Shown here piece by piece: positions 5,825 through 38,908 of a DNA stretch of 64,000 nt. The notes under the pieces are model-generated. The model saw only the letters and a program-made list of their open reading frames with translations, was not told the origin of the DNA and did not search any database. How positions within the stretch are numbered: the stretch's first letter is position 1; the number at the start of each line of letters is the position of its first letter. A program made the translations under genes and the position numbers. This DNA is from Promicromonospora umidemergens (GTDB lineage: Bacteria; Actinomycetota; Actinomycetes; Actinomycetales; Cellulomonadaceae): contig NZ_JAMTCT010000014.1 of the NCBI RefSeq assembly GCF_024171995.1, positions 62,001 through 126,000 on the forward strand, given 5' to 3'.

Positions 5825-6002
5825 CCTTGGCGGAGGTCGCGAGGCTGCGTCGTCCAGCATCACCAGGGGTCTGTGGAAAACCGGGTGCGAGCGCTATCGT
5901 CTGCGGTGTTGTGCTCCCGAACACCCCGCGGTCCGCGGGCGCCGACGAGAGCCCCGACGCAGGAGCCCCCCTCGTGGGAGACCCGGAGCAGGAGAAGGTC
6001 CC

Positions 6003-7739
6003 GTGAGTGCCGACATCGACCCGACCGAGGCCATCCCTCAGGTCACGGCCGAGATGATCGCGAAGGCGCCGGCCCAGCCGGCGGCGCCGCGTGCCGCCGA
6101 ACCAGCATCTGTGCCGACATCTGGGGTGCGCCGGCGGGAGGCCGGGTCCGCGGCGCCACCAGCCCCGCTTTCGGCGACGCGTCCGGACACGTCGGCCGCC
6201 GGGTCCGCGCAGTCCTTGTCCACACCGCCGACCGGGCGCGGGACGTCCGCCGGTCCGGAGGCGCAAGCCCCGGAGAAGGCAGGCCGCCAGGTCGCCGAGC
6301 AGCCTGCCGCGCCGGACGCCGTGCTCCGAGAACGGTCGGGTGCGTCGGCCTTTGCCCCGTCGGAGCCGTACGGTGAGCGGCATGCCGCTGCCGGGCGCAT
6401 CGCTGCCGGGCACCTCTCCTCGCTCGTGCAGATCCCGACGGTGTCGTCGTGGGACCCGCAGCATCTCGACCACGAGGCGTTCGGAAGGCACCGGGCCGCG
6501 CTGGCGACGTTCTACCCCCGGGTGCACGCCCTGCAGAGCGAGCAGGCGGGCGATCACGGGCTGCTCTACCGGTGGCCGGGCCGGGGGCGGCAGGACGTGC
6601 TGCATCCCTTCCCTGTGGTCCTCATGGCGCACCAGGACGTGGCGCCGGTCCAGACAGCCGACTGGCCCGCCAACCCGTTCTCGGGTGAGATCCGGGACGG
6701 GGCGGTGCACGGTCGCGGCACGCTCGACGACAAGGGCGGGCTCGTCGCGGTGCTCGACGCCGTGGAGACGCTGCTCGGCGACGGCTTCGTGCCGGAGCGT
6801 GACATCTGGCTGTTCTTCGGCGCGGACGAGGAGGCGGCGGGCCAGTCCGCCACGATCGCCGTCCGGCGGCTGTACCAGCTGGGCGTGCGGCCCTGGCTCG
6901 TGATCGACGACGGCGGCGGCGTCGTGACCGACGCCTTTCCCGGCGTGGACCGCCAGACCGCCATGGTCGGCGTGGCAGAGAAGGGCCTGGTCGGGATCAA
7001 CTTGCGCACCTCGGACGTCGGCGGCCATGCCGCGACGCCCGGCAGGCAGCCCGCCACCGTACGGCTCGCCCGCGCGGTGACGCGCGTGAGCCGACGTCGG
7101 TACGCGCCGCAGGTCAACGCGCCGACGGTCGACATGCTGCAGCGGGTCGCTCCGAGCGCGGTCGGCGCCAAGGGGCTGGGCCTCAGGGTGGCCGCACGGC
7201 TTGCCTCCGGCCCGTTGCGCAAGGTCGCCTTCTGGCTGGTGGCCACGGGCGGTCCGGAGGCCTCGGCACTGGTCCGTACCACCGTGGCGGTCACCGAGCT
7301 CGAGGGCAGTGCGGGGCCGAACGTCGCGGCGTCGTCGGCCCGTGCTCGCCTGGACGCCCGGGTGGCGCTCGGGGAGACGGTGGACCGGACCGTGGCGCGG
7401 CTGCGCCGCGTCATCCGGGACAAGCAGGTCGAGATCGAGGTGGTGGAGCGGAGCGAGCCCAGCGAGGTCTCACCGACGGACAGCCAGCAGTTCGCGCTGC
7501 TCAGCGAGGCGATCGGTGCGTCATACCCGGACGCGGTGGTGGTTCCGTACGTGCTCCTCGCGGCCACCGACGCGCGTACCTTCACCCCCATCAGCGACCA
7601 CGTCTACCGGTTCAGCCCGTTTGCATTGTCGCGTGCGCAGCGGCAGTCGATTCACGGGGCCGGCGAGCAGCTGAGCGTCGATTCTCTGGGCCGCGGAGTG
7701 CATTTCTACCGTGAGGTGCTCCGCAAGATACCGGGCTGA
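6003..7739 (+). CDS. M20-family metallopeptidase (dipeptidase/deacylase-like)
   Basis: A 578-residue peptidase. The catalytic domain starts near residue 120 and shows the first metal His and Asp in LMAHQDVAPV, the bridging Asp in GRGTLDDKGG, and the double Glu in FFGADEEAAG. The dimerisation domain contains GGHAATPGRQPA. The first 115 or so residues are an unusual Ala/Pro/Glu-rich, apparently disordered extension with no signal peptide. The GTG start is preceded by GGAGCAGGAGAAGG. M20 enzymes are di-zinc amidohydrolases acting on peptides or acylated amino acids; the substrate here is unknown. It stands alone between the M14 gene and a small membrane protein. Confidence 0.92.
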   Translation: MSADIDPTEAIPQVTAEMIAKAPAQPAAPRAAEPASVPTSGVRRREAGSAAPPAPLSATRPDTSAAGSAQSLSTPPTGRGTSAGPEAQAPEKAGRQVAEQPAAPDAVLRERSGASAFAPSEPYGERHAAAGRIAAGHLSSLVQIPTVSSWDPQHLDHEAFGRHRAALATFYPRVHALQSEQAGDHGLLYRWPGRGRQDVLHPFPVVLMAHQDVAPVQTADWPANPFSGEIRDGAVHGRGTLDDKGGLVAVLDAVETLLGDGFVPERDIWLFFGADEEAAGQSATIAVRRLYQLGVRPWLVIDDGGGVVTDAFPGVDRQTAMVGVAEKGLVGINLRTSDVGGHAATPGRQPATVRLARAVTRVSRRRYAPQVNAPTVDMLQRVAPSAVGAKGLGLRVAARLASGPLRKVAFWLVATGGPEASALVRTTVAVTELEGSAGPNVAASSARARLDARVALGETVDRTVARLRRVIRDKQVEIEVVERSEPSEVSPTDSQQFALLSEAIGASYPDAVVVPYVLLAATDARTFTPISDHVYRFSPFALSRAQRQSIHGAGEQLSVDSLGRGVHFYREVLRKIPG

Positions 7740-7806
7740 CCTGCGCATTCAACAAATTGCCGAAATTGGACTAAGTTCTCCCTTTACATAGGTGAGGGAG
7801 ACGTCC

Positions 7807-8151
7807 ATGAGCAGCTCCGCCGTGCCGCCGGCTGTGCCGCCGGCTGTCCCGGGTGGCTCGCGCGCGCCCGTGAGCGTCAACGTCCACACCTACCCGGCGC
7901 AGCTGCAGTATCCGCCGCGGTCGTATCTCCTCTTCGCCGTTCTGGTGACCATCTTCTGCTTCTGGCCCACCGGAATCGTCGCCCTCGTGAACGCGCTGCG
8001 TGTCAATCATCTGTGGAAGTCACAGGAGCACGACAAGGCCCGGAAAGCATCACGCCGCGCGCGCGACTGGGGACTGGTGTCGCTGGTCATCGGAATCGTC
8101 GTGGTCGTGATCGTGGTGTTCTGGGCGAGCATCACCTACCTGAACGGGTAG
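7807..8151 (+). CDS. CD225/dispanin-family small membrane protein
   Basis: A 114-residue protein with a Pro/Ala/Val-rich N-terminal tail and two membrane helices, roughly residues 37-58 and 83-107. The first helix and following loop (FCFWPTGIVALVNALRVNHLW) match the CD225/dispanin pattern, in which a helix ends in a P-x-G-x-x-A motif followed by a basic loop. ATG 7807 is preferred to an upstream start because GTGAGGGAG lies directly before it. Bacterial members are common in actinomycetes and usually uncharacterised; a membrane-organising role is only a guess. Confidence 0.82.
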   Translation: MSSSAVPPAVPPAVPGGSRAPVSVNVHTYPAQLQYPPRSYLLFAVLVTIFCFWPTGIVALVNALRVNHLWKSQEHDKARKASRRARDWGLVSLVIGIVVVVIVVFWASITYLNG

Positions 8152-8230
8152 CAACTTCACCCCCTGTTCCCCACGTATCACACGACTGCCCCTCCTGCCC
8201 CGGTGGGACTTGCGGGTAAAGTTCGCGGCT

Positions 8231-9427
8231 ATGAGTGCGACACGGCGCAAGGGCTCGCGGGACGGTCGCGCTGCGTCTCGCGCCGGAGGTCCCCCCGCAA
8301 CCAATGCGCTCACTTGGGCGGAGAGCCTCGCGGCAGGGGAAGCCGCGCCGGGTGCCAGCGCTCTCGAGTGGGCCGAGGGCCTCACGGAGAACGAGCCGGC
8401 ACCCAGTCCCTGGGGCAGCGGCGCGGCCGCAGCCCCCGCGGATCCCGCCCCGGCCGACGGGACGGGCGGCTCTCCCTGGGGAGCCGTGCCGGCGCCCGCC
8501 GTGCCGGACGGCGAGAGCGACGGCGACGCCAACCCGTGGGGCTCCGTGGCGGCCGCCGAGCCCGCCGTGACCCGTGGCCGCGGCAAGAACGCGGGCGGCA
8601 AGAGTGGCAAGGGCAGCAAGTCGAGGTCCAAGGGCAAGGGCGCCAAGGCCGCCGCGTCGGGCGTGCCGAAGAGCGAGCCCGCGCCGACACCGGCGGGCGG
8701 CTTTCCGCTCAACGCGGGTCCGGTGGCCGACGACGTCGACGTCCCACCCGCGCAGCTGCCCGCAGCCGTCCCGTCCGAGCCCGTGCCCGTGCCCATGCCG
8801 GACGACGCCTCGCTCGCCGTACCCGACGGGCCGGGCGGGCCGGACGGGTCCGCCCTGCCGAGCAAGTCCGAGTCCAGGAAGACTGGCAAGAAGCGCGGGA
8901 AGGGCCGTATCCCCGGTCCCAGCACCGCGCAGCAGAAGCGGATCAGGAAGACGCTCCGCCGGGGCCTGCCCAAGGTGCTCGACCAGCCGCTGGTACTCGT
9001 GCTGGCCGGCGTGACCGCTGCGGCGCTGGGCCTCGGTACGGGCTGGGGGACGACCTTCTTTCAGGGCGAGGACGTCATCTCGGACGCGGACGCCGCATCG
9101 TGCGCACAGACGCAGATGGCGTGGACGCAGGCCGCCAACGCGCAGTCGGCGATGGTCGAGGACCAGCCAGAGACGCTGCGCAAGGGGTTCATCAATGCCC
9201 GCAACGCGCTGGAGGGCGTGACGCCGCCCGAGGCCATCGCGAAGGACTGGGCAGTCGCCTTCACCTATTACTCGACGGTCGCCAACAACATCGAGAAGGT
9301 GAAGGCGAACGACGGCCCGGCGGTGAGCTCCGCCGTCGGCGGCGCACAGGAGGAGCTCGACACCGAGGCGATGGTCGAGTCCTCCCAGCGCGTGCAGGAG
9401 TACGTGGCGTCCAACTGCCGCAGCTAG
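8231..9427 (+). CDS. Ala/Pro/Gly-rich protein with one membrane helix, unknown function
   Basis: A 398-residue protein I do not recognise. The N-terminal 240 residues are low-complexity and contain imperfect internal repeats: WAESLAAGE and WAEGLTENE, then PSPWGSG, GSPWGAV and NPWGSV. A basic Lys/Gly stretch (GKSGKGSKSRSKGKGAKA) and a second basic patch precede a single helix near residues 260-283. The remaining 115 residues form an extracellular, largely helical domain with one Cys near its start and one at the end. The layout suggests a type II membrane protein with a disordered cytoplasmic tail. No strong ribosome site is seen, so ATG 8231 is somewhat uncertain. Confidence 0.7.
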   Translation: MSATRRKGSRDGRAASRAGGPPATNALTWAESLAAGEAAPGASALEWAEGLTENEPAPSPWGSGAAAAPADPAPADGTGGSPWGAVPAPAVPDGESDGDANPWGSVAAAEPAVTRGRGKNAGGKSGKGSKSRSKGKGAKAAASGVPKSEPAPTPAGGFPLNAGPVADDVDVPPAQLPAAVPSEPVPVPMPDDASLAVPDGPGGPDGSALPSKSESRKTGKKRGKGRIPGPSTAQQKRIRKTLRRGLPKVLDQPLVLVLAGVTAAALGLGTGWGTTFFQGEDVISDADAASCAQTQMAWTQAANAQSAMVEDQPETLRKGFINARNALEGVTPPEAIAKDWAVAFTYYSTVANNIEKVKANDGPAVSSAVGGAQEELDTEAMVESSQRVQEYVASNCRS

Positions 9428-9470
9428 CGCGCTCTGCTCGCGTGGTGGGGGCACGGGGTCTGCGTGCAGG

Positions 9471-11063
9471 ATGGGGCCCGTGCAGCCTCTTGTGACCGAT
9501 CCCGCCCTCGTCGCCTCGCTCCGAGCCGACCTGGTCTCCGCCGCCTACGACGTCGACGGCGTCGAGGACCTCCTGGGACCGCTCGCCGCGGCCGCGCTGC
9601 ACAGGGAGCAGTCGCTGCCGGCCCGCCGGGCGGTCGCCGCGGCGGTGGGTGGCAAGCCGCCGTCGGACCAGGACCCGCTGGCCACCCTCGCCGGCCTCTT
9701 CCTGGTGGGCGCCGCGGTGCCGCGCGCCGCGCTGGACCGGGCGCTGCCCGCGGCGGGGACGGCGGGCGCCGAGCGGCTCGGTCTGGTCGCGGCCCAGGGC
9801 GCCGGGGACGACGACGAGGTGCGTGCCGTCGTGGACCTGCGCCCCTACTCCTCCGTCGACGCGGGCGGCGACGCCCGCTGGTGGCTCGCCTCCGACCTGG
9901 GCGAGCTCGCGACCGGCGGCCGCCTGGCCACCGACCACGTCCTCGGTGCTGGCGGTGCGTCTCTCACGCTGGCGCAGGTCACGGTGCGCAACCCGACCGG
10001 CCGGGTGCTCGACCTGGGCACCGGCTGCGGGATCCAGGCCCTGCACGCGGCGCGGCACGCGCAGCACGTGGTGGCGACGGACATCTCGCGGCGGGCGCTG
10101 TCCTTCGCGGGGTTCAACGTCGCGCTCAACACCGATGCCGGGACGTCGCTGGACCTCCGGTACGGGTCGATGCTGGAGCCGGTCGCGGGCGAGCGGTTCG
10201 ACCTCGTGGTCTCCAACCCGCCGTTCGTCATCACACCGCACGCCGGGGCGGCGGGCCGGGCGGTCGCCGACGCGCTCGGCGCCTACGAGTACCGCGACGG
10301 CGGCCGAGCGGGCGACGACCTGGTGCGGGACCTGATCCTCGGCGTCGGCGACGTGCTGGCACCTGGCGGGACCGCCCAGCTCCTCGGCAACTGGGAGCAC
10401 CGCAAGGGCGAGCCGTGGACCGAGCGGGTGGGTGCGTGGCTCGACGAGGCCGGCCTGGACGGCTGGATCATCCAGCGCGAGGTCCTCGACCCCGCCGAGT
10501 ACGCGGAGACGTGGATCCGGGACGGCGGCACCACCATCGACCGCGAGCCGGACGCCTGGGCGGCGGCCTACGGCGCCTGGCTCGACGACTTCGAGTCCCG
10601 GGACGTCGAGGCGGTCGGCTTCGGCCTGGTGACCCTCCGACGCCCGGCATCCGGGCAGGCCACGCTGCGACGCCTCGAGGAGCACACCGGCTCGGTCCGG
10701 CAGCCGCTCGGCGCGCACATCGCCCGCAGCCTCGCCGGGCACGACTGGCTCGCGGCGCGGGACGACGCGGCACTCGCCGCGGCGCACCTCGTCACCGCCG
10801 CTGACGTCACGGAGGAGCGCTACCTGACACCGGGTGCGGCCGACCCGAACGTCGTGATCCTGCGGCAGGGGGACGGGCTGGGGCGCGGCGTGCAGGCGTC
10901 GAGCCCGCTCGCGGCCCTGGTCGGCGCGTGCGACGGGGAGCTGACGGTGGGGCAGATCGTCGGGGCGCTCGCCGCGCTGTTCGACGTCGCGGCGGCCGAC
11001 CTGGCGGCCGAGCTGCTGCCGGCGGTCCGTGGCCTCGTCCGGGACGGTTTTCTGGCGGAGTGA
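9471..11063 (+). CDS. Class I SAM-dependent methyltransferase (HemK/RlmG-like)
   Basis: A 530-residue methyltransferase. An N-terminal helical domain of about 160 residues precedes the Rossmann core with motif I VLDLGTGCGIQALHAA, motif II around DISRRAL, and motif IV SNPPF. NPPF/NPPY motifs mark enzymes methylating amide or exocyclic amino groups, such as PrmC-type and N2-guanine rRNA methyltransferases. A further helical domain follows. The target (rRNA base or release factor) cannot be decided; the length and C-terminal extension resemble a conserved actinomycete group of unassigned specificity. ATG 9471 is used; a GTG three codons downstream is also possible. Confidence 0.85.
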   Translation: MGPVQPLVTDPALVASLRADLVSAAYDVDGVEDLLGPLAAAALHREQSLPARRAVAAAVGGKPPSDQDPLATLAGLFLVGAAVPRAALDRALPAAGTAGAERLGLVAAQGAGDDDEVRAVVDLRPYSSVDAGGDARWWLASDLGELATGGRLATDHVLGAGGASLTLAQVTVRNPTGRVLDLGTGCGIQALHAARHAQHVVATDISRRALSFAGFNVALNTDAGTSLDLRYGSMLEPVAGERFDLVVSNPPFVITPHAGAAGRAVADALGAYEYRDGGRAGDDLVRDLILGVGDVLAPGGTAQLLGNWEHRKGEPWTERVGAWLDEAGLDGWIIQREVLDPAEYAETWIRDGGTTIDREPDAWAAAYGAWLDDFESRDVEAVGFGLVTLRRPASGQATLRRLEEHTGSVRQPLGAHIARSLAGHDWLAARDDAALAAAHLVTAADVTEERYLTPGAADPNVVILRQGDGLGRGVQASSPLAALVGACDGELTVGQIVGALAALFDVAAADLAAELLPAVRGLVRDGFLAE

Positions 11064-11166
11064 CCCGCGACCAGCAGCCCTCCTGGCGGCGCCCGTCCGT
11101 TTCGTGGGCGTAACGGTCGTTCGCGCGAACCGATAAATCTTGTTCAGAACAGAGACATCTGCGGCT

Positions 11167-12141
11167 ATGACAGATATTTTCCACCGTGTGGAACTCGACA
11201 TGCGGCACTTGAGGATGGTTGTCGCCGTTGCCGAGTCGGGCAGCGTCACGAAGGCGGCGGCTGCCCTCGGCATCGCGCAGCCGGCCCTGACCGCGCAGCT
11301 CAACCGCATCGACCGGTCGCTGGGCGGGAACGTGTTCGTCCGCGATCGCTTCGGTGCGCGCCCGACCGAGCTCGGTGACCTCATACTCCGGCACGCCCGC
11401 GTGCTGCTGCCGGCCATGGCGGCCCTTGCCGACGATGCCGAGCGGTTGGTGAACGGTGACGTCTCCCTTGGCGAGACGGTCCGGGTCGGCATCACCGGGA
11501 CCGCGCTGGGCGGCCTGTTCGTCAACCAGCTGCACATCGCCATCCCCGGCGTACAGGTCACCACGACGATGCCCCACCTGGCGGACGACGTCGCGGCCCG
11601 GCTCGCCAGGGGGACCATCGACCTTGGCCTGGTCGGGATGTGCTCGGAGGCGTCGCCACCGGCCGCGGTGGAGGTCGCGTGGACCCGGGTCTGCGCCGAC
11701 CCGATGTTCGTCCTCCTCGACGAGCACCACCCCTACGCGGGCAAGCCGGAGGTGTCGCTCGCCGAGCTGGCCGAGGAGCAGTGGCTCTGCGTCCCGTCGT
11801 ACGGCTGCCTCGAGGAGTGCTTCGTGTCGGCGTGCGTACGTGCGGGGTTCACGCCCCGCGGCATGGGCGAGGCCGAGTGGACCACCGCCGTCGACCAGGT
11901 GCGGGCGGGGCGCGCCGTCGCGCTCGTGGAGCCAGGGCAGCTGGACCCGCCGGGGGTCGTGACGGTCCCTCTGGCGGGAGCACCCCTGCGACGCACCCAC
12001 TACCTGGGCTGGCGGCACGACGCCGACCTGCGGGTGGACCTGGAGGCAGTCGAGGGCGCCGCCCACCGCGCCCACCGCGACGCCGTCCGGCGCAGCCCGC
12101 AGTACGAACACTGGCTGGCGATGTACGGCATGCTCGGCTGA
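11167..12141 (+). CDS. LysR-family transcriptional regulator
   Basis: A 324-residue regulator with the N-terminal winged helix-turn-helix (MRHLRMVVAVAESGSV, then KAAAALGIAQPALTAQLNRID) and a C-terminal periplasmic-binding-like effector domain. ATG 11167 gives a normal start; an upstream TTG is less likely, and ATG 11200 would begin at the DNA-binding domain itself. The effector domain contains several Cys (GMCSEAS, LCVPSYGCLEECFVSAC), which could be redox or metal ligands, but that is speculation. It lies 158 bp upstream of the first secreted protease in the same direction and may control it, although no T-N11-A box was confirmed. Confidence 0.9.
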   Translation: MTDIFHRVELDMRHLRMVVAVAESGSVTKAAAALGIAQPALTAQLNRIDRSLGGNVFVRDRFGARPTELGDLILRHARVLLPAMAALADDAERLVNGDVSLGETVRVGITGTALGGLFVNQLHIAIPGVQVTTTMPHLADDVAARLARGTIDLGLVGMCSEASPPAAVEVAWTRVCADPMFVLLDEHHPYAGKPEVSLAELAEEQWLCVPSYGCLEECFVSACVRAGFTPRGMGEAEWTTAVDQVRAGRAVALVEPGQLDPPGVVTVPLAGAPLRRTHYLGWRHDADLRVDLEAVEGAAHRAHRDAVRRSPQYEHWLAMYGMLG

Positions 12142-25655: not shown

Positions 25656-25701
25656 GAGGGCCGCTCACCGATCCGGGTTCGTACCGGCTCGTGGTGTGCA
25701 C

Positions 25702-25777
25702 GCCGCCTTAGCTCAGTCGGTAGAGCGTCTCACTCGTAATGAGAAGGTCATCAGTTCGATTCTGATAGGCGGCTCCA
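25702..25777 (+). tRNA. tRNA-Thr (anticodon CGT)
   Basis: A cloverleaf can be drawn: acceptor stem GCCGCCT/AGGCGGC, D-arm GCTC...GAGC, anticodon stem TCTCA/TGAGA around loop CTCGTAA (anticodon CGT, reading ACG), T-arm with GTTCGATTC, discriminator T, and an encoded CCA at 25775-25777. The gene is intact. Its 3' part is the left copy of a 43-bp repeat that recurs at 27790, showing that it is an integration target. Confidence 0.95.
25733..25775 (+). repeat. Left attachment-type repeat (3' end of tRNA-Thr)
   Basis: A 43-bp sequence from the anticodon loop to just past the acceptor stem, identical to 27790-27832. Exact identity stops on both sides. Integrases that use tRNA genes leave this arrangement. 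Confidence 0.85.
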
Positions 25778-26074
25778 CCAAGAAGACCCCGTTCGACCAG
25801 GCCATACGCGCCAGGATCGGTCGGGGTTTCTTGCGTCCCACGCCCCGCTGAGAGCACCCCCCGCGCTCCCCGGGCCGCGTGCATCGGCTACGCCAAGACG
25901 TCGCGCCGGGGAAGCGAACCACAAGTCGCCGGTGCAGACGCTGTTGCCGCCGACATCGGAGACCTCGCCGTCCCACAAGGGCCTGATGCGCGAAGATGTC
26001 GGCACGGCCAGGGCTCCGGGAGGGCTTTCTCGGAGCCTTACTTCATGCCCGCAGCCCGCCGCGCACGCCGTCGA
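25778..26074. other. Gene-free stretch at the left end of the island
   Basis: Open frames here are continuations of the tRNA sequence or lack a ribosome site, and none has protein-like composition. No integrase, terminator or attachment core other than the tRNA repeat was recognised. Confidence 0.5.
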
Positions 26075-26121
26075 GTATCGCTCCCATACCCGCTTGACTC
26101 CTCGGGTATCGCCGCCATACT
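26075..26121 (+). promoter_or_regulatory. Promoter and paired operators of the island toxin-antitoxin operon
   Basis: TTGACT (26094-26099) and CATACT (26116-26121) form a good promoter. Two 15-bp boxes, GTATCGCTCCCATAC at 26075-26089 and GTATCGCCGCCATAC at 26106-26120, are 13/15 identical and each is an interrupted palindrome with GTAT/ATAC ends. They start 31 bp apart, about three helical turns, and the second overlaps the -10. This is what an autorepressing ribbon-helix-helix antitoxin would bind. Confidence 0.7.
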
Positions 26122-26127
26122 GAGGAA

Positions 26128-26379
26128 GTGGAATACGTGGTGGGGCGGACGGCGCGGAAACGGTCCAAGGGCTTCGACTGGTCACTCGTGGAGGCGGTCA
26201 TGAGCCAGCACGACCCGATCCGGTTCGAGGAAGACGGCCGGACCTGGCTCGGTTGGCTCGGTGACGACGGAGAAGGCGGCCAATGGGAAGTCATCGGGCA
26301 CCTCGCCGACGACGAGCCAGACCTACTTGTCATCACCCGCGCCCAGCGCTTCCAGCAGACGTTCACCGAGGAAGGATGA
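26128..26379 (+). CDS. Putative small toxin (DUF4258/BrnT-like fold, tentative)
   Basis: An 83-residue protein starting VEYVVGRTARKRSKGFDW. The pattern of a basic VGRTARK-type N-terminus, a central glycine turn (WLGWLGDDG), a strand ending in EVIGHLADDEPDLLVITRAQ, and a short helix resembles small RelE/BrnT-like or DUF4258 proteins that are often the upstream toxin of ribbon-helix-helix pairs in actinomycetes. No catalytic residue can be assigned with confidence. The GTG start follows GAGGAA. The stop overlaps the antitoxin start (ATGA), so the two are translationally coupled. The toxin-first order is typical of BrnT-type systems. Confidence 0.65.
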   Translation: MEYVVGRTARKRSKGFDWSLVEAVMSQHDPIRFEEDGRTWLGWLGDDGEGGQWEVIGHLADDEPDLLVITRAQRFQQTFTEEG

Positions 26380-26660
26380 ACACGATGACCAAGTACACGC
26401 GCAGGCCCGAGGAGCCCGGCAAGGACTACTCCGCCGGGATGAGCGACGAGCAGATCGAAGCCACCACCGAGCGCGTCTCACAGCGGCTCCGGAACCTCCA
26501 CAGAGGCGGCTACTCCCTCAGCGGCGAAGAAGAGCACTCACCGAAGGTATCGGTCACCCTGCCCCGCGACGTCCGCGACAAGGTCGCCGCACGAGCCGCA
26601 GCCGAAGGTGTGTCCGTCTCGAAGTACCTCCGGCGCATCATTACCGAACACGCCGCCTGA
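26376..26660 (+). CDS. Ribbon-helix-helix antitoxin-like protein
   Basis: A 94-residue protein. The C-terminal 45 residues form a ribbon-helix-helix DNA-binding motif: strand PKVSVTLPRDV, helix RDKVAARAAAEG, turn VS, helix SKYLRRIITEHA. The N-terminal half is charged and probably disordered, suited to wrapping the partner toxin. ATG 26376 overlaps the stop of the 83-residue gene; ATG 26385 is an alternative. Two boxes upstream of the operon are candidate binding sites. The assignment as antitoxin is inferred from domain, size and coupling. Confidence 0.75.
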   Translation: MNTMTKYTRRPEEPGKDYSAGMSDEQIEATTERVSQRLRNLHRGGYSLSGEEEHSPKVSVTLPRDVRDKVAARAAAEGVSVSKYLRRIITEHAA

Positions 26661-26723
26661 CACGCGCGGCGCGGGGCTCGTGAGGACTTTCTTTACTGTC
26701 TCAAGGCGCCGCTCCGCGGCGTA

Positions 26724-26746
26724 GGGCCCCGCCGTCGGCGGGGCCC
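26724..26746 (+). terminator. Hairpin after the island toxin-antitoxin operon
   Basis: Arms 26724-26733 and 26737-26746 are exact complements with a 3-nt loop. A second imperfect stem (about 26759-26790, AGACGGTC paired with GACCGTCT) follows. Together they probably separate this operon from the convergent gene at 26822. Confidence 0.7.
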
Positions 26747-26821
26747 CGAACATGACGAAGACGGTCCCGACTCAGTGGTCGAGACCGTCTCTCGTTGTGC
26801 AGCTCGCGCCCGACTGCCTGA

Positions 26822-27169
26822 CTACTGGGCGTCCACCGGCTCCATCGGGTCGTGCCAACGCCTGAAATAGCGCTCGATCGCCTCCGGGCGAGCGAGGTCC
26901 AGTTCCAGCCACTCGGCAGAAGCCATCCTCAACCGGTCCTCGCAGAGCGCACGGTCGCCGCCGATCCGTGGATCGTCCTTGATATCGGTCAGGTTCGCCC
27001 ACAGGAGGTACGCCGCCCCGCCGTGCTCGGCATCGAACATGACTTCGTCAGCGGCAATCTCGTCCATGCCGTCGATGCCGACCCAGTACGGATCGCTCGA
27101 AGCCAGGACCTGATGTGCCGTGCTGGTCATGATGGCGTAGAGCTGGGAGTCAGCGTCATTGGATGCCAT
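26822..27169 (-). CDS. Hypothetical protein in the island
   Basis: A 115-residue acidic protein that I do not recognise. It contains SSDPYWVGIDGMDEIAADEVMFDAEHGGAAYLLWANLTDI in its centre and ends RYFRRWHDPMEPVDAQ. There is no signal peptide or membrane helix. The start at MASNDADSQLY was chosen because the open frame upstream is basic and unlike the rest of the protein; no clear ribosome site is seen. It is convergent with the toxin-antitoxin operon. An immunity-like or small regulatory role is possible but unsupported. Confidence 0.55.
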   Translation of the reverse strand: MASNDADSQLYAIMTSTAHQVLASSDPYWVGIDGMDEIAADEVMFDAEHGGAAYLLWANLTDIKDDPRIGGDRALCEDRLRMASAEWLELDLARPEAIERYFRRWHDPMEPVDAQ

Positions 27170-27474
27170 GGCCGAACTGTAGACACGGTGCCAGCACGAC
27201 TCACCGCCGCGCCCAGGGCCCGTCCGCGACGCACCCACCAAGTGCCTCCGGCGGGCACCTGTCGGAATCAAGAGGATCGAGGGAACCGCGGTGCTCCTGC
27301 CCCTCCGTCATCCATTGGCTTGACCGGACCTTGACACCGAACCTGTTGCACTACCGGCAGGACCGATGTCCGAGACGTGCCCCGCGCCAACGGATGACGG
27401 AGGATCAGGGGTTCCGAGCCGGGAGTACGACGGGGTCACAAGCCCGCAGGGGCAGACGGGCCCGATCGCTGTGC
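27170..27474. other. Intergenic stretch of the island holding an inverted-repeat element
   Basis: No convincing gene is seen in these 305 bases. The only structure is the inverted repeat at 27302-27403, reported separately. Confidence 0.5.
27302..27403. repeat. 102-bp element with 18-bp terminal inverted repeats
   Basis: Arms 27302-27319 and 27386-27403 match in 17 of 18 positions as reverse complements, enclosing 66 bp. It could be a small structured RNA, a protein-binding site such as an excision or mobilisation site, or the remnant of a miniature transposable element. No flanking target duplication was seen. Confidence 0.6.
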
Positions 27475-27663
27475 CTATTCGTAGGGCCCCTCGACCGCCA
27501 GCGGGAAGCGCGGCTGTAGCGCTGCAACCAGGCAGGCGTGGTGAGCCCCGATGGTCTGGGAGGTCACAATGTGGTCCCACGACACGTTAAGGCGGACGTA
27601 CCTCGGATCGTCGTCGGTCGGTTCGCCGCAGAAGCCGCAGAGGAATCGGTCGTGGTTGCTCAC
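27475..27663 (-). CDS. Small Cys/His-rich protein, possible zinc ribbon
   Basis: A 62-residue protein with FLCGFCGEPTDDDPRYVRLNVSWD and later IGAHHACLVAALQPRFPL. The CxxC pair near residue 9 and the HHxC group near residue 41 could bind one zinc ion. The composition and spacing look like a real gene rather than a shadow, and I recall similar short uncharacterised actinomycete proteins, but no named family can be given. It lies between the inverted-repeat element and the right end of the island. Confidence 0.55.
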   Translation of the reverse strand: MSNHDRFLCGFCGEPTDDDPRYVRLNVSWDHIVTSQTIGAHHACLVAALQPRFPLAVEGPYE

Positions 27664-27789
27664 TGGTTGATGATCCCGCCCGTAGAGCGCCTGGTTTCGC
27701 GCACCCCCGACTCGCGACCGCGTGGTTCGAGCGCACCAGATGCCTGCGAAATCCGGCGGAGGATCCGGCCCGTAGGCATCCGGGACGTT

Positions 27790-27832
27790 CTCGTAATGAG
27801 AAGGTCATCAGTTCGATTCTGATAGGCGGCTC
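27790..27832 (+). repeat. Right attachment-type repeat (displaced tRNA-Thr 3' end)
   Basis: An exact 43-bp copy of 25733-25775. The 5' half of the tRNA is missing and the encoded CCA is replaced, so this is not a functional tRNA. It marks the right end of the island. Confidence 0.85.
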
Positions 27833-27842
27833 AGTACGCCAA

Positions 27843-27871
27843 AGGCCCGGAACCTCCACGGTTCCGGGCCT
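27843..27871 (+). terminator. Hairpin beyond the right repeat, probably the original tRNA-Thr terminator
   Basis: Arms 27843-27854 and 27860-27871 are exact complements (12 bp, 5-nt loop), followed by CTGTCTTA. Its place 10 bp after the displaced tRNA end suggests that it terminated the tRNA before integration. Confidence 0.7.
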
Positions 27872-27896
27872 CTGTCTTAGTCCGGCATGGGGCTGC

Positions 27897-27942
27897 GGAT
27901 CAAACTCTCTACACCTAGGATTATCTGTAGAGAGTTTGATCC
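27897..27942 (+). promoter_or_regulatory. Perfect 17-bp inverted repeat operator around the abiE promoter
   Basis: Arms 27897-27913 and 27926-27942 are exact complements separated by 12 bp. The spacer contains TAGGAT (27916-27921), a likely -10. AbiEi antitoxins are known to repress their own promoters by binding inverted repeats, and this one lies 20 bp upstream of the abiEi start. Confidence 0.75.
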
Positions 27943-27962
27943 GACCGTTCCCGGAGGTGCCA

Positions 27963-28538
27963 GTGCACGATCTCCTTGCTCGACGTGCCCCGTTCCGCAC
28001 CGCCGAAGCGCGCGCCCAAGGCGTCAACGCGCGGATGCTCCGTGCCTGGGTCGACTCCGGCCTTGTTACTCAGCTCGCGCGGGGAATCTACGAGCCGGCG
28101 GATGCCGACGCGGGGGATCCGGACTTGATCGAGATCGTTATCAGGTCCCCGCGGGCGACGATCTGTCTCACGACCGCACTCGCTCAGTACGACCTCGTTG
28201 ATGACATTCCTGTGGCGTACGACCTCGCACTGCCACGTGGAGCGCACAGGCCTCTGCTGGCGGCGCGGGTAGCTTGGCGATGGTTTGATGCCGAGACGTT
28301 CTGCATCGAGCGCAGGACGGAGCAGATCAGTGGCGTCGTCGTCCCGATCTATTCGCCCGCCCGGAGCGTCGTCGACGCCTTCCGCATGCGGGGTTATGAG
28401 GGGTACGAGACGGCGACCACCGCATTGCGCCGTTGGCTTGTCAGGCGCGGAAACCACCCCTCAGAACTGCTACGCATTGCTCGCCTGCTGCCTCGTGCCG
28501 AGAGGCCGCTCCGTACCGCTCTGGAGATCCTGACATGA
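27963..28538 (+). CDS. abiEi: AbiEi-type antitoxin and autorepressor (type IV toxin-antitoxin)
   Basis: A 191-residue protein. The N-terminal winged helix-turn-helix (RTAEARAQGVNARMLRAWVDSGLVTQLARGIYEP) and the C-terminal antitoxin domain (PRATICLTTALAQYDLVDDIP, then YSPARSVVDAFRMR) fit the AbiEi family. Type IV antitoxins act on the toxin's target rather than binding the toxin, and also repress the operon. GTG 27963 follows GGAGG; a longer frame runs into the operator and is rejected. The stop overlaps the toxin start (ATGA). Confidence 0.85.
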   Translation: MHDLLARRAPFRTAEARAQGVNARMLRAWVDSGLVTQLARGIYEPADADAGDPDLIEIVIRSPRATICLTTALAQYDLVDDIPVAYDLALPRGAHRPLLAARVAWRWFDAETFCIERRTEQISGVVVPIYSPARSVVDAFRMRGYEGYETATTALRRWLVRRGNHPSELLRIARLLPRAERPLRTALEILT

Positions 28539-29395
28539 CCGAGATCGCGACGGCGACCACTGCGGGACAGGCCAGGGAGGCGTATCTCGCGCTGCGCAAC
28601 GTCGCCAGGCGGGACGGCGTCAACTTCGCTGAGACGCTCGTCCTCTACAAGCTTGAGCGCACGCTTCACAGGCTTACGCGGACCGACTACCGACACAAGT
28701 CCGTCCTCAAGGGCGGCTTCCTCTTGGCGGCGTATGCCGACCGTCGGCCAACCAAGGACATCGACGCGATGTTGAGCGATCTGAGCCTGGACGAGGCCAC
28801 CGTTCGTCAAGTCTGTCGCGCTGTCATCGCAGTGGACGAGCCGGACCGCCTGACGTACGACGTCGAGACCTTGAACGTTACCGAGATACGCGAGAACGAC
28901 GACTACGCCGGCTTCCGCGCCGCCATGACCTGCAACCTGCACACGGACAGGCAAAAGATTGCCTTCGACTTCTCGACCGGGGACCCTGTCGCGCCGCCCG
29001 CGATCGACGTCGTGTTGCCGGGGTTGCTCGGTCAGGACGTGACCGTGCGTGGCTATGTGCCCGCGATGATCGTGGCCGAGAAGTACGTCACCGCGCTGGC
29101 ACGTGGCGAGACGAACACCCGCTGGCGCGACTTCGTGGACCTGTACACGATTGGCCGAACCGTTCCTGTCGACCCAAGCGAACTCCTGACGTCGTTGCGC
29201 GCGGTCGCCAACCATCGCGGCGTACCACTGGTTCCGCTTGCCGAGGCGGTCGACCTGACGAAGTTCGCTGAGGTTGCGCAGACTCGATATGTCGCTTGGC
29301 GACGCAAGCATGGGCTATCCAGACTCGCACCCGAACGGTTCGCGGACCTCCTCGCGGCCGTCGGGGCGTTGATCGACCCGGTACTGGCCAGGTGA
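28535..29395 (+). CDS. abiEii: AbiEii-type nucleotidyltransferase toxin
   Basis: A 286-residue protein of the AbiEii/AbiGii family. The nucleotidyltransferase core shows KGGFLLAAYADRRPTKDIDAML (GG, then the D-x-D metal site) and the later acidic strand QKIAFDFSTGD. The helix with MIVAEKYVTALARGETNTRWRDFVDLY matches the family's EK and RxKDxxDL signatures. These toxins act as abortive phage defence by nucleotidylating a host target, in related MenT proteins the tRNA 3' end. It is coupled to the antitoxin by a 4-base overlap. Codon use looks less biased to GC than the flanks, suggesting acquisition. Confidence 0.88.
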   Translation: MTEIATATTAGQAREAYLALRNVARRDGVNFAETLVLYKLERTLHRLTRTDYRHKSVLKGGFLLAAYADRRPTKDIDAMLSDLSLDEATVRQVCRAVIAVDEPDRLTYDVETLNVTEIRENDDYAGFRAAMTCNLHTDRQKIAFDFSTGDPVAPPAIDVVLPGLLGQDVTVRGYVPAMIVAEKYVTALARGETNTRWRDFVDLYTIGRTVPVDPSELLTSLRAVANHRGVPLVPLAEAVDLTKFAEVAQTRYVAWRRKHGLSRLAPERFADLLAAVGALIDPVLAR

Positions 29396-36043: not shown

Positions 36044-38605
<2,562 letters not shown>

Positions 38606-38632
38606 CCGCCCGGTAAGGCTCCCGGACCGTAA

Positions 38633-38673
38633 CGAAGGCCCGGTCACCCCGAACAGGGGTGGCCGGGCCTTCG
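38633..38673 (+). terminator. Terminator of clpC
   Basis: Arms 38633-38650 and 38656-38673 pair in 17 of 18 positions with a 5-nt loop, 28 bp after the clpC stop. Confidence 0.8.
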
Positions 38674-38700
38674 TGCGTGGTCGGCAGGACGTCAAGCGTT

Positions 38701-38756
38701 CGGCAAAACGTCAGGTGGTCGGCAGCCCGAGCTGCCGACCACCTGACGTATTGCCG
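38701..38756. repeat. Long second hairpin upstream of the TRAP operon
   Basis: Arms 38701-38725 and 38732-38756 pair in 24 of 25 positions. The motif TCGGCANNACGTCA is also present in direct orientation at about 38681 and 38700. No gene lies between 38606 and 38908; the rest of this stretch holds the clpC terminator and a possible -35 (TTGACA at 38801) without a clear -10. Confidence 0.65.
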
Positions 38757-38908
38757 ACCGCACGTGCCACAGGCCGCACGTGCCACGTACCGCGCGGAGT
38801 TTGACATGTTCCCCGTCAAGATGGTTCCGTACGACAGAACTCAGTTCCGCTAGGCGGATCAAAGCACCGGATGAACGTCCCGCTCGATGTTGAGCAGAAG
38901 GAGAAGCG

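Follow-up and report, generated by a model that had tools for sequence, protein, structure and literature searches.

A 2-kb tRNA-Thr(CGT) island of Promicromonospora umidemergens as a probable decayed integrative and conjugative element with a conserved hairpin

How does an island of 2 kb that lies between two exact copies of a tRNA end, and that encodes no integrase, come to occupy its site? The question is raised by a tRNA-Thr(CGT) locus of Promicromonospora umidemergens, which lies in the stretch of 64,000 nt analysed here (the window; source genome G000). We propose, with a probability of roughly 0.8, that the island is a decayed actinomycete integrative and conjugative element (AICE) with intact attachment (att) sites. 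This reading draws on a precise empty site in a relative, on a full AICE with matching ends at the same tRNA, on a stub of an integrase gene, on ends and blocks typical of AICEs, on graded decay at one tRNA, on a damaged hairpin and on a hairpin tree in which small and large elements are mixed, together with the lack of a close integrase or TraB in the window genome and the publication of the same pattern for Streptomyces. An earlier note on this DNA had seen the element as a minimal passenger; the stub, the AICE ends and non-coding blocks, the hairpin damage and the mixed tree argue against its having been built as one.

The comparison covers 13 genomes of the genus (G000-G012), an additional genome from another genus (G014), a family set of 221 genomes and an order set of 396 genomes. 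The tRNA and downstream DNA of G001-G012 and G014 were aligned to both window ends. Loci are labelled L055 (G001), L059 (G005), L060 (G006), L070 and L072 (G004), L068 (the window genome, G000:C6), and L129 and L168 (G196, Myceligenerans).

The insertion site and its empty counterpart

The only tRNA found in the window by ARAGORN is tRNA-Thr(CGT). A segment that corresponds to tRNA positions 32-74, and therefore starts at the anticodon loop, recurs at the far end of the island:

25702..25777, plus strand: tRNA-Thr(CGT), the integration target (ARAGORN; Rfam RF00005)
25733..25775, plus strand: attL copy of the 43-bp repeat, within the tRNA (exact repeat)
25780..25832, no strand assigned: terminator-like hairpin from an AICE left end, shared by G000-G007, G009, G011 and G014 and different in G008, G010 and G012
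27790..27832, plus strand: attR copy of the 43-bp repeat (exact repeat)
27836..27871, plus strand: putative native tRNA terminator, displaced by the insertion (hairpin arms 27835-27854 and 27860-27879)

The two copies are identical at 43/43 positions and bound 2,057 bp; the number of such repeat pairs expected by chance in 64 kb is about 1.6e-14. Both the exact repeat of the tRNA 3' end and the hairpin beyond its right copy, as described in the earlier note, are real, and the site-specific integration that it deduced from them is borne out by a precise empty site in G012. There, a single tRNA-Thr(CGT) is followed directly by the terminator found at 27836-27871 of the window, the palindromic stretch that the window also has there, and AbiEi; the flanks are joined, the island is missing, and no second copy of the 43-bp repeat is present at the tRNA-Thr(CGT) site. 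An empty site of this form in relatives is what the note had proposed to look for. The same site bears on the alternative that the repeat arose by an ancestral duplication or rearrangement of the tRNA end and not by insertion. Such an origin would agree with the repeat being a partial tRNA copy, but the single copy with precisely joined flanks in G012 and the AICE ends carried by the inserted DNA make it exceedingly improbable, and we reject it.

The hairpin at 25780-25832 occupies the position of the native terminator of relatives. Within the genus (n=13), the AICE left-end terminator is present in 10 genomes (G000-G007, G009 and G011), the native one in two (G010 and G012, in which it adjoins the tRNA) and neither in one (G008). 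Among 17 loci from other genera, a close or similar form of the native terminator was found in three (G021, G022 and G023, representing three genera) and the AICE left end in one (G014), the rest showing other sequences; the G012-type terminator is here taken as the native form for this lineage. A full second att copy was detected in 5 of the 10 left-end genomes (exact in G000, G003, G005 and G006; 41/43 in G001), and its lack elsewhere is no proof of absence because the stretch examined behind the tRNA spans only 4.4-18 kb, varying with contig and fetch.

A second left-end terminator of the AICE type follows the right att copy in L055 and L059, which suggests that elements have accreted in tandem at tRNA-Thr(CGT).

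Homology to a complete element and graded decay

In G005, the same tRNA is followed by a 10-kb element that is bounded by the same 43-nt att and ends in a non-coding right arm followed by attR. It encodes an integrase (Phage_integrase, 2e-15), RepSA (1.6e-148), FtsK/TraB (2.2e-9) and a regulator that weakly matches sigma-70, along with further open reading frames (ORFs) that we take to be WhiB-like and SpdB-like; judged from these predicted genes, it is a pSAM2-type AICE. Positions 25701-25877 of the window align with L059 1123-1308 at 82.8% identity (blastn), through the terminator and into the integrase tail (the integrase stop lies at L059 1260), and further parts of the island correspond to the right arm of such elements:

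25830..25877, minus strand: integrase 3'-end remnant, about 16 codons of the G005 gene (blastn against L059)
25878..25956, no strand assigned: AICE right-arm block B (matches in L057, L074 and L076, 75-76%)
26679..26806, no strand assigned: AICE non-coding blocks C1/C2, hairpin-rich, recurring in AICEs and remnants
27239..27448, minus strand (the inferred folded strand): hairpin D, a damaged copy that lacks about 64 nt at its tip and upper stem
27698..27789, no strand assigned: AICE right end (block E) before attR, 78-83% with G003, G005 and G006, the matches continuing through attR

Blocks B, C, D and E occur in AICEs in the same order, with variable cargo genes between them. Since the match to the integrase end stops at 25877 and that to the right arm starts at 25878, a deletion junction can be placed at about 25877/25878. 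The tail remnant alone aligns with an integrase; in agreement with the earlier note, the ORF list, tblastn and an integrase profile revealed no integrase between the repeats. Tblastn with the G005 rep, TraB and SpdB likewise gave no match in the window unit, no other rep family having been searched for. Elsewhere in the window genome, we found no close relative of the G005 integrase (best 29% identity, E 2.4e-7) or of its TraB (best 33% identity, E 5.4e-7).

Beside tRNA-Ala(CGC), L169 (8656-9753, G004) and L170 (9185-10276, G005) encode integrases that share about 75% identity with that of the tRNA-Thr element and would represent close relatives of it with another target.

A profile of six integrases, run on the stretches behind the tRNA, reveals successive degrees of loss. 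Full-length integrase frames are found in 2 of the 10 left-end genomes, G005 (371 codons) and G001 (357), which thus provide the islands with the same end plus an integrase that had been suggested as a check. Partial integrases are present in G003 (residues 158-360, about half), G004 (fragments in different frames) and G006 (a tail), and at E 1e-3 the profile finds nothing in the stretches of G000, G002, G007, G009 and G011, the stub in G000 being visible by nucleotide alignment only.

These comparisons suggest the following history. An element of the pSAM2 type, about 10 kb long, would have integrated into the 43-bp core of tRNA-Thr(CGT) by tyrosine-integrase recombination; as the empty and full sites show, the insertion restored the 3' end of the tRNA, supplied a terminator of its own and displaced the native one to the far side. 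An internal deletion, to which the comparison with the full element points, would then have removed almost all of int as well as rep, tra and the regulators, leaving attL, the int stub, the right arm with small cargo, the damaged hairpin and attR. Such a remnant is probably inert alone and passively kept, perhaps via a toxin-antitoxin-like gene pair. With two identical att sites, it might still be a potential cis-mobilisable element, either through a later AICE of the same integrase specificity settling beside it or through excision in trans.

A prophage or phage satellite, in place of an AICE, would be a far less probable parent. Integration into the same tRNA 3' ends by tyrosine integrases is also found in phages, but the conserved blocks are common to RepSA/TraB elements, and a search of viral_contigs for an exact 26-base pattern taken from the hairpin gave no match.

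Decay of AICEs is already known, and the present case is of a known kind in a new place. In the accessible part of the Streptomyces account, decayed AICEs (DAICEs) keep their direct repeats and leftover cargo, have a truncated or lost integrase, and are accompanied by empty sites in other strains and by a complete AICE that occupies the same site in another strain (PMC9513070); a further report mentions remnant AICEs (PMC3218068). The island shares with DAICEs the repeats, the lost integrase, the leftover cargo, the empty site and the full AICE elsewhere, and differs in its site, tRNA-Thr(CGT), in its genus, and in the conserved hairpin, which is absent from that part of the account (PMC9513070). 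Cis-mobilisable elements (CIMEs) are defined as elements without integration and transfer genes that keep attL and attR (PMC5704250); the island has likewise lost the former and kept the latter, its parent being presumably an AICE (RepSA/TraB). With respect to both classes, we find an att pair around cargo, lost genes with homology to a full element, and an empty site. By comparison with a pSAM2-type AICE, the island shares the ends, the non-coding right arm and the integrase tail but is without the RepSA, TraB and integrase genes; no integrase of its own lies beside att, and the RepSA and TraB of the G005 type are not matched. Nor can it be classified as an integrative and mobilisable element, given that there is no integrase and that its ribbon-helix-helix (RHH) protein resembles NikA/MobA-type proteins weakly, below cut-offs. 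We found no literature on integrative and conjugative elements in Promicromonospora, and the locus offers a comparative system for AICE decay, with one tRNA site in empty, full, half and minimal states within one genus.

A conserved hairpin near the right repeat

Of wider value is hairpin D, a structure of about 270 nt that is a directly testable candidate cis element of AICEs and the part of the finding most worth pursuing; what is new is a conserved, strongly covarying and strand-specific hairpin that has no match in Rfam and in most cases lies 99-144 bp from the right repeat. At E < 1e-20 it occurs in 15 of the 221 family genomes (10 of the 13 in the genus and 5 in two other genera); at E <= 0.001 the count rises to 21 genomes, the additional six being short matches, and the covariance model, under the stricter filters of Infernal, matched 2 of the 396 order genomes, both of the same family. 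Searches of Rfam gave no match at the hairpin (E up to 1, E up to 0.5, and gathering threshold), and those of plasmids none. In 9 of 12 repeat-flanked copies attR starts 99-144 bp past D, the exceptions being the window (341 bp, with the gene for a 62-aa protein between), L073 (818 bp) and L082 (1050 bp).

The copy in the window is damaged, as seen from its score of 59 bits versus 156 bits for a copy elsewhere in the window genome. Folded on the inferred strand, it reaches z -2.0 (8/200 shuffles as good) and two intact copies reach -7.0 and -10.6; the opposite strands give -1.2 (27/200) for the window and -3.7 and -7.7 for the intact copies.

In the direction in which the 28 copies were first aligned, changes on both sides of a pair are seen at 16 of 52 pairs, in 67 cells versus 15.2 in shuffles (0/500); the measure based on further pair types is weaker in this direction (24 versus 20.7; 28/500). 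The non-Watson-Crick cells comprise 43 A-C versus 5 G-T, with 31 other mismatches (27 copies, L132 left out), and from this excess of A-C over G-T it follows that the complement is the folded strand. On the complement, in 27 copies, the 48 core pairs are formed in 98.1% of cells and 18 pairs are double-changed, with 76 double-change cells versus 16.4 in shuffles and all five measures at 0/500; G-U pairs account for 206 of 1292 cells. The strand asymmetry is not owed to the complement structure, because it was measured on the structure of the other strand. Wherever rep or TraB was seen in an element, the folded strand runs in the same sense as that gene (14/14 elements, TraB serving as a proxy for rep in 7), although these elements are not independent because of shared ancestry.

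The role that we tentatively place first is that of a single-strand origin. In rolling-circle replication, the displaced strand is the one with the sense of rep; as expected for such an origin, the structure of D is conserved on one strand and the folded strand has rep sense. The role also fits a RepSA rolling-circle element and the lack of a conserved promoter, a promoter-like TANNNT motif occurring within 180 nt upstream in 6/28 copies at scattered positions. Single-strand origins of rolling-circle elements, such as sso1 of ICEBs1, are stem-loops like D (PMC4595007); D lies, unlike them, far from rep. A non-coding RNA, with which the high share of G-U pairs agrees, is a somewhat less probable alternative. 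Less likely still is the remaining option, a clt transfer locus or something else. The clt loci of Streptomyces conjugative plasmids include inverted repeats, and TGACACC is a repeat of the pWTY27 clt (PMC3583192); a single TGACACC in 25/28 copies of D favours the comparison. It is disfavoured by the motif not being repeated, where known clt loci have several direct repeats, and by the strand asymmetry, which would be unexpected for a double-strand binding site; moreover, the pWTY27 clt lies beside tra (PMC3583192), and D beside attR. Octamers repeated at least 4 times within 600 bp are present in 5/9 elements, none being common to elements. A function as an attC-like site was rejected, as cargo segments do not each have their own D and units without D exist.

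Two further sets of matches deserve mention. GC-rich palindromes at 38605-38777 of the window match the hairpin model weakly (31 bits, E 1.5e-4), probably by chance or as a terminator-like structure. The copies in L071 (9420-9693) and L077 (9015-9292) lie downstream of what are presumably glnA-like and lpd-like genes, and their mutually similar flanks suggest non-tRNA integration sites.

Small integrase-less units, cargo and neighbouring genes

The second new element of this analysis is a set of ten units of 1.2-3.4 kb, flanked by exact repeats and without an intact integrase, that occupy six target sites in Promicromonospora and Myceligenerans, three of them in tandem at rnpB:

Window, tRNA-Thr(CGT): 43-nt repeat, 2057 bp
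L060 (G006): 43-nt repeat, 1206 bp, integrase tail present
L068 (window genome), behind tRNA-Ser(CGA): 39-nt repeat, 1175 bp
L070 (G004), behind tRNA-Arg: 28-nt repeat, 3389 bp, 88-aa integrase-fragment ORF
L072 (G004), 5940-11719, 3' end of rnpB (Rfam RF00010): three tandem units, 28-30-nt repeats, 1591, 1293 and 2866 bp
L129 (G196), 9236-11105, within a protein gene, a non-tRNA target that we take to have a multicopper-oxidase-like motif: 51-nt repeat, 1819 bp
L168 (G196), behind tRNA-Arg(CCG): 21-nt repeat, 2264 bp
L082: 16-nt repeat (the weakest), 1293 bp

The integrase profile matches, within the ten, only the 88-aa fragment ORF of L070 and the tail of L060. Excluded were L057, unit 1 of L068, L073, L079, unit 1 of L082 and L126, on grounds of a truncated integrase, of the 259-aa integrase ORF (L073) or of a size of 5-6 kb. 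The cargo of the L072 tandem includes a RibD_C protein, a membrane-like protein and an APH-family phosphotransferase. Because 8 of the 10 units were located outward from hairpin copies or window-block matches, the retention of the hairpin in small units is no evidence of selection. A gene for a hydrophobic membrane-like protein is present in L060, L068, L070, L072 and L086 and in 0/12 TraB-bearing elements (5/11 versus 0/12, Fisher p 0.014); we give this enrichment no weight because the groups were compared post hoc and because L086, one of the loci counted, has no demonstrated flanking repeat.

At L068 9039-15622, two repeat-flanked units without a recognised integrase lie behind tRNA-Ser(CGA); in one of them hairpin D is intact (156 bits) and accompanied by a membrane-like gene, and a PemK/MazF-like toxin gene adjoins both.

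These units lend support to an alternative in which the island is a non-autonomous 2-kb mini-element moved in trans by the integrase of an AICE with the same att, perhaps also using its replication and transfer. Such movement is possible because both att copies are identical, and it would agree with the ten units at six target sites, the tandem triple at rnpB and a cassette shared across genera. Conversely, the integrase stub at the left end, the damaged hairpin and the lack of a close integrase in the window genome (the best being the 29% match given above) speak against it, and repeat-flanked units without the hairpin (L072 unit 2 and L168) leave no shared moving module shown. A tree of 27 hairpins (8 from small elements, 12 from TraB-bearing ones and 7 unlabelled, the truncated window copy being left out) has the small and TraB-bearing labels mixed, requiring 5 changes, of which 3 are imposed by branches with good support; given this mixture, repeated origins of small forms from large ones are probable. 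A single lineage of small elements is accordingly rejected, the tree showing no more than that. On balance, we consider movement of the island in trans unlikely. Similarly improbable, in our view, is the wider proposition of a pool of att-flanked, integrase-free mini-elements in Promicromonospora and Myceligenerans (1.2-3.4 kb, with one to few cargo genes) that would be moved cassette-like in trans by AICEs and stacked in tandem behind tRNA genes or rnpB, the hairpin on the attR side serving AICEs and hairpin-keeping mini-elements as a cis-acting copy or transfer signal (a single-strand origin, regulatory RNA or transfer locus).

Several observations nonetheless weigh against the origin by decay that we prefer. 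The att copies are identical and lie in a tRNA variant absent from the 12 other genus genomes and from G014, so that the integration, or a conversion, cannot be ancient. The three adjacent rnpB units of G004, all without integrase, would require three separate deletions. The DNA at 26010-26660 of the window, comprising the genes for an 83-aa protein and the RHH protein with their upstream DNA, has 86.9% nucleotide identity to L168 of Myceligenerans, that is, to a repeat-flanked, integrase-less unit of 2.26 kb behind another tRNA, tRNA-Arg(CCG), in another genus, as would fit mobile small units. No AICE with exactly the cargo of the window was found, for which reason the precursor is inferred. 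Finally, label shuffles on the hairpin tree need a mean of 6.4-6.5 changes, and 82-86/500 are as low as observed, which is near random.

The cargo of the island comprises four small genes:

26128..26379, plus strand: 83-aa protein without a family match, preceding the RHH gene
26376..26660, plus strand: 94-aa RHH protein (Pfam RHH_5/RHH_1; phrog_25971, E 7.4e-9; homologue in L168)
26822..27169, minus strand: 115-aa protein without a convincing family (93% identical in G003)
27475..27663, minus strand: 62-aa Cys-rich protein (homologue in G196, L129, 69%)

The 83-aa protein has no match in Pfam, NCBIfam, PHROGs or PADLOC, nor in plasmids, and a fold search with its predicted model (pLDDT 71.6) returned 0 matches at E <= 0.001; it is present in 3 of the 221 family genomes, namely the window genome, G196 (L168, 86-87% identical) and, weakly, G228. 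The RHH protein, for which no match was found in phages, is antitoxin-like or mobilisation-regulator-like and would fit an antitoxin or DNA-binding role. Their gene order suggests a toxin-antitoxin-like layout with the 83-aa protein in the putative toxin position. For the 115-aa protein (predicted model pLDDT 49) and the 62-aa protein, only weak matches were obtained (phrog_28978, E 0.0022; PADLOC DinG model, E 0.009), and among the loci compared their homologues occur only in G003 and in L129. The description of the content as mainly defence or addiction-type small genes therefore holds as to gene size and the RHH protein, the other proteins having no family or weak matches.

The clear defence genes, an AbiEi/AbiEii type IV toxin-antitoxin pair at 27936-29395 (PADLOC, E 4.3e-47 and 3.7e-70), lie outside the island; AbiE as its cargo was rejected, as AbiEi follows both the empty site of G012 and the island of G003. 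Ahead of the pair lies an 18-nt inverted repeat with perfectly matching arms (27896-27913/27926-27943), which is probably its operator.

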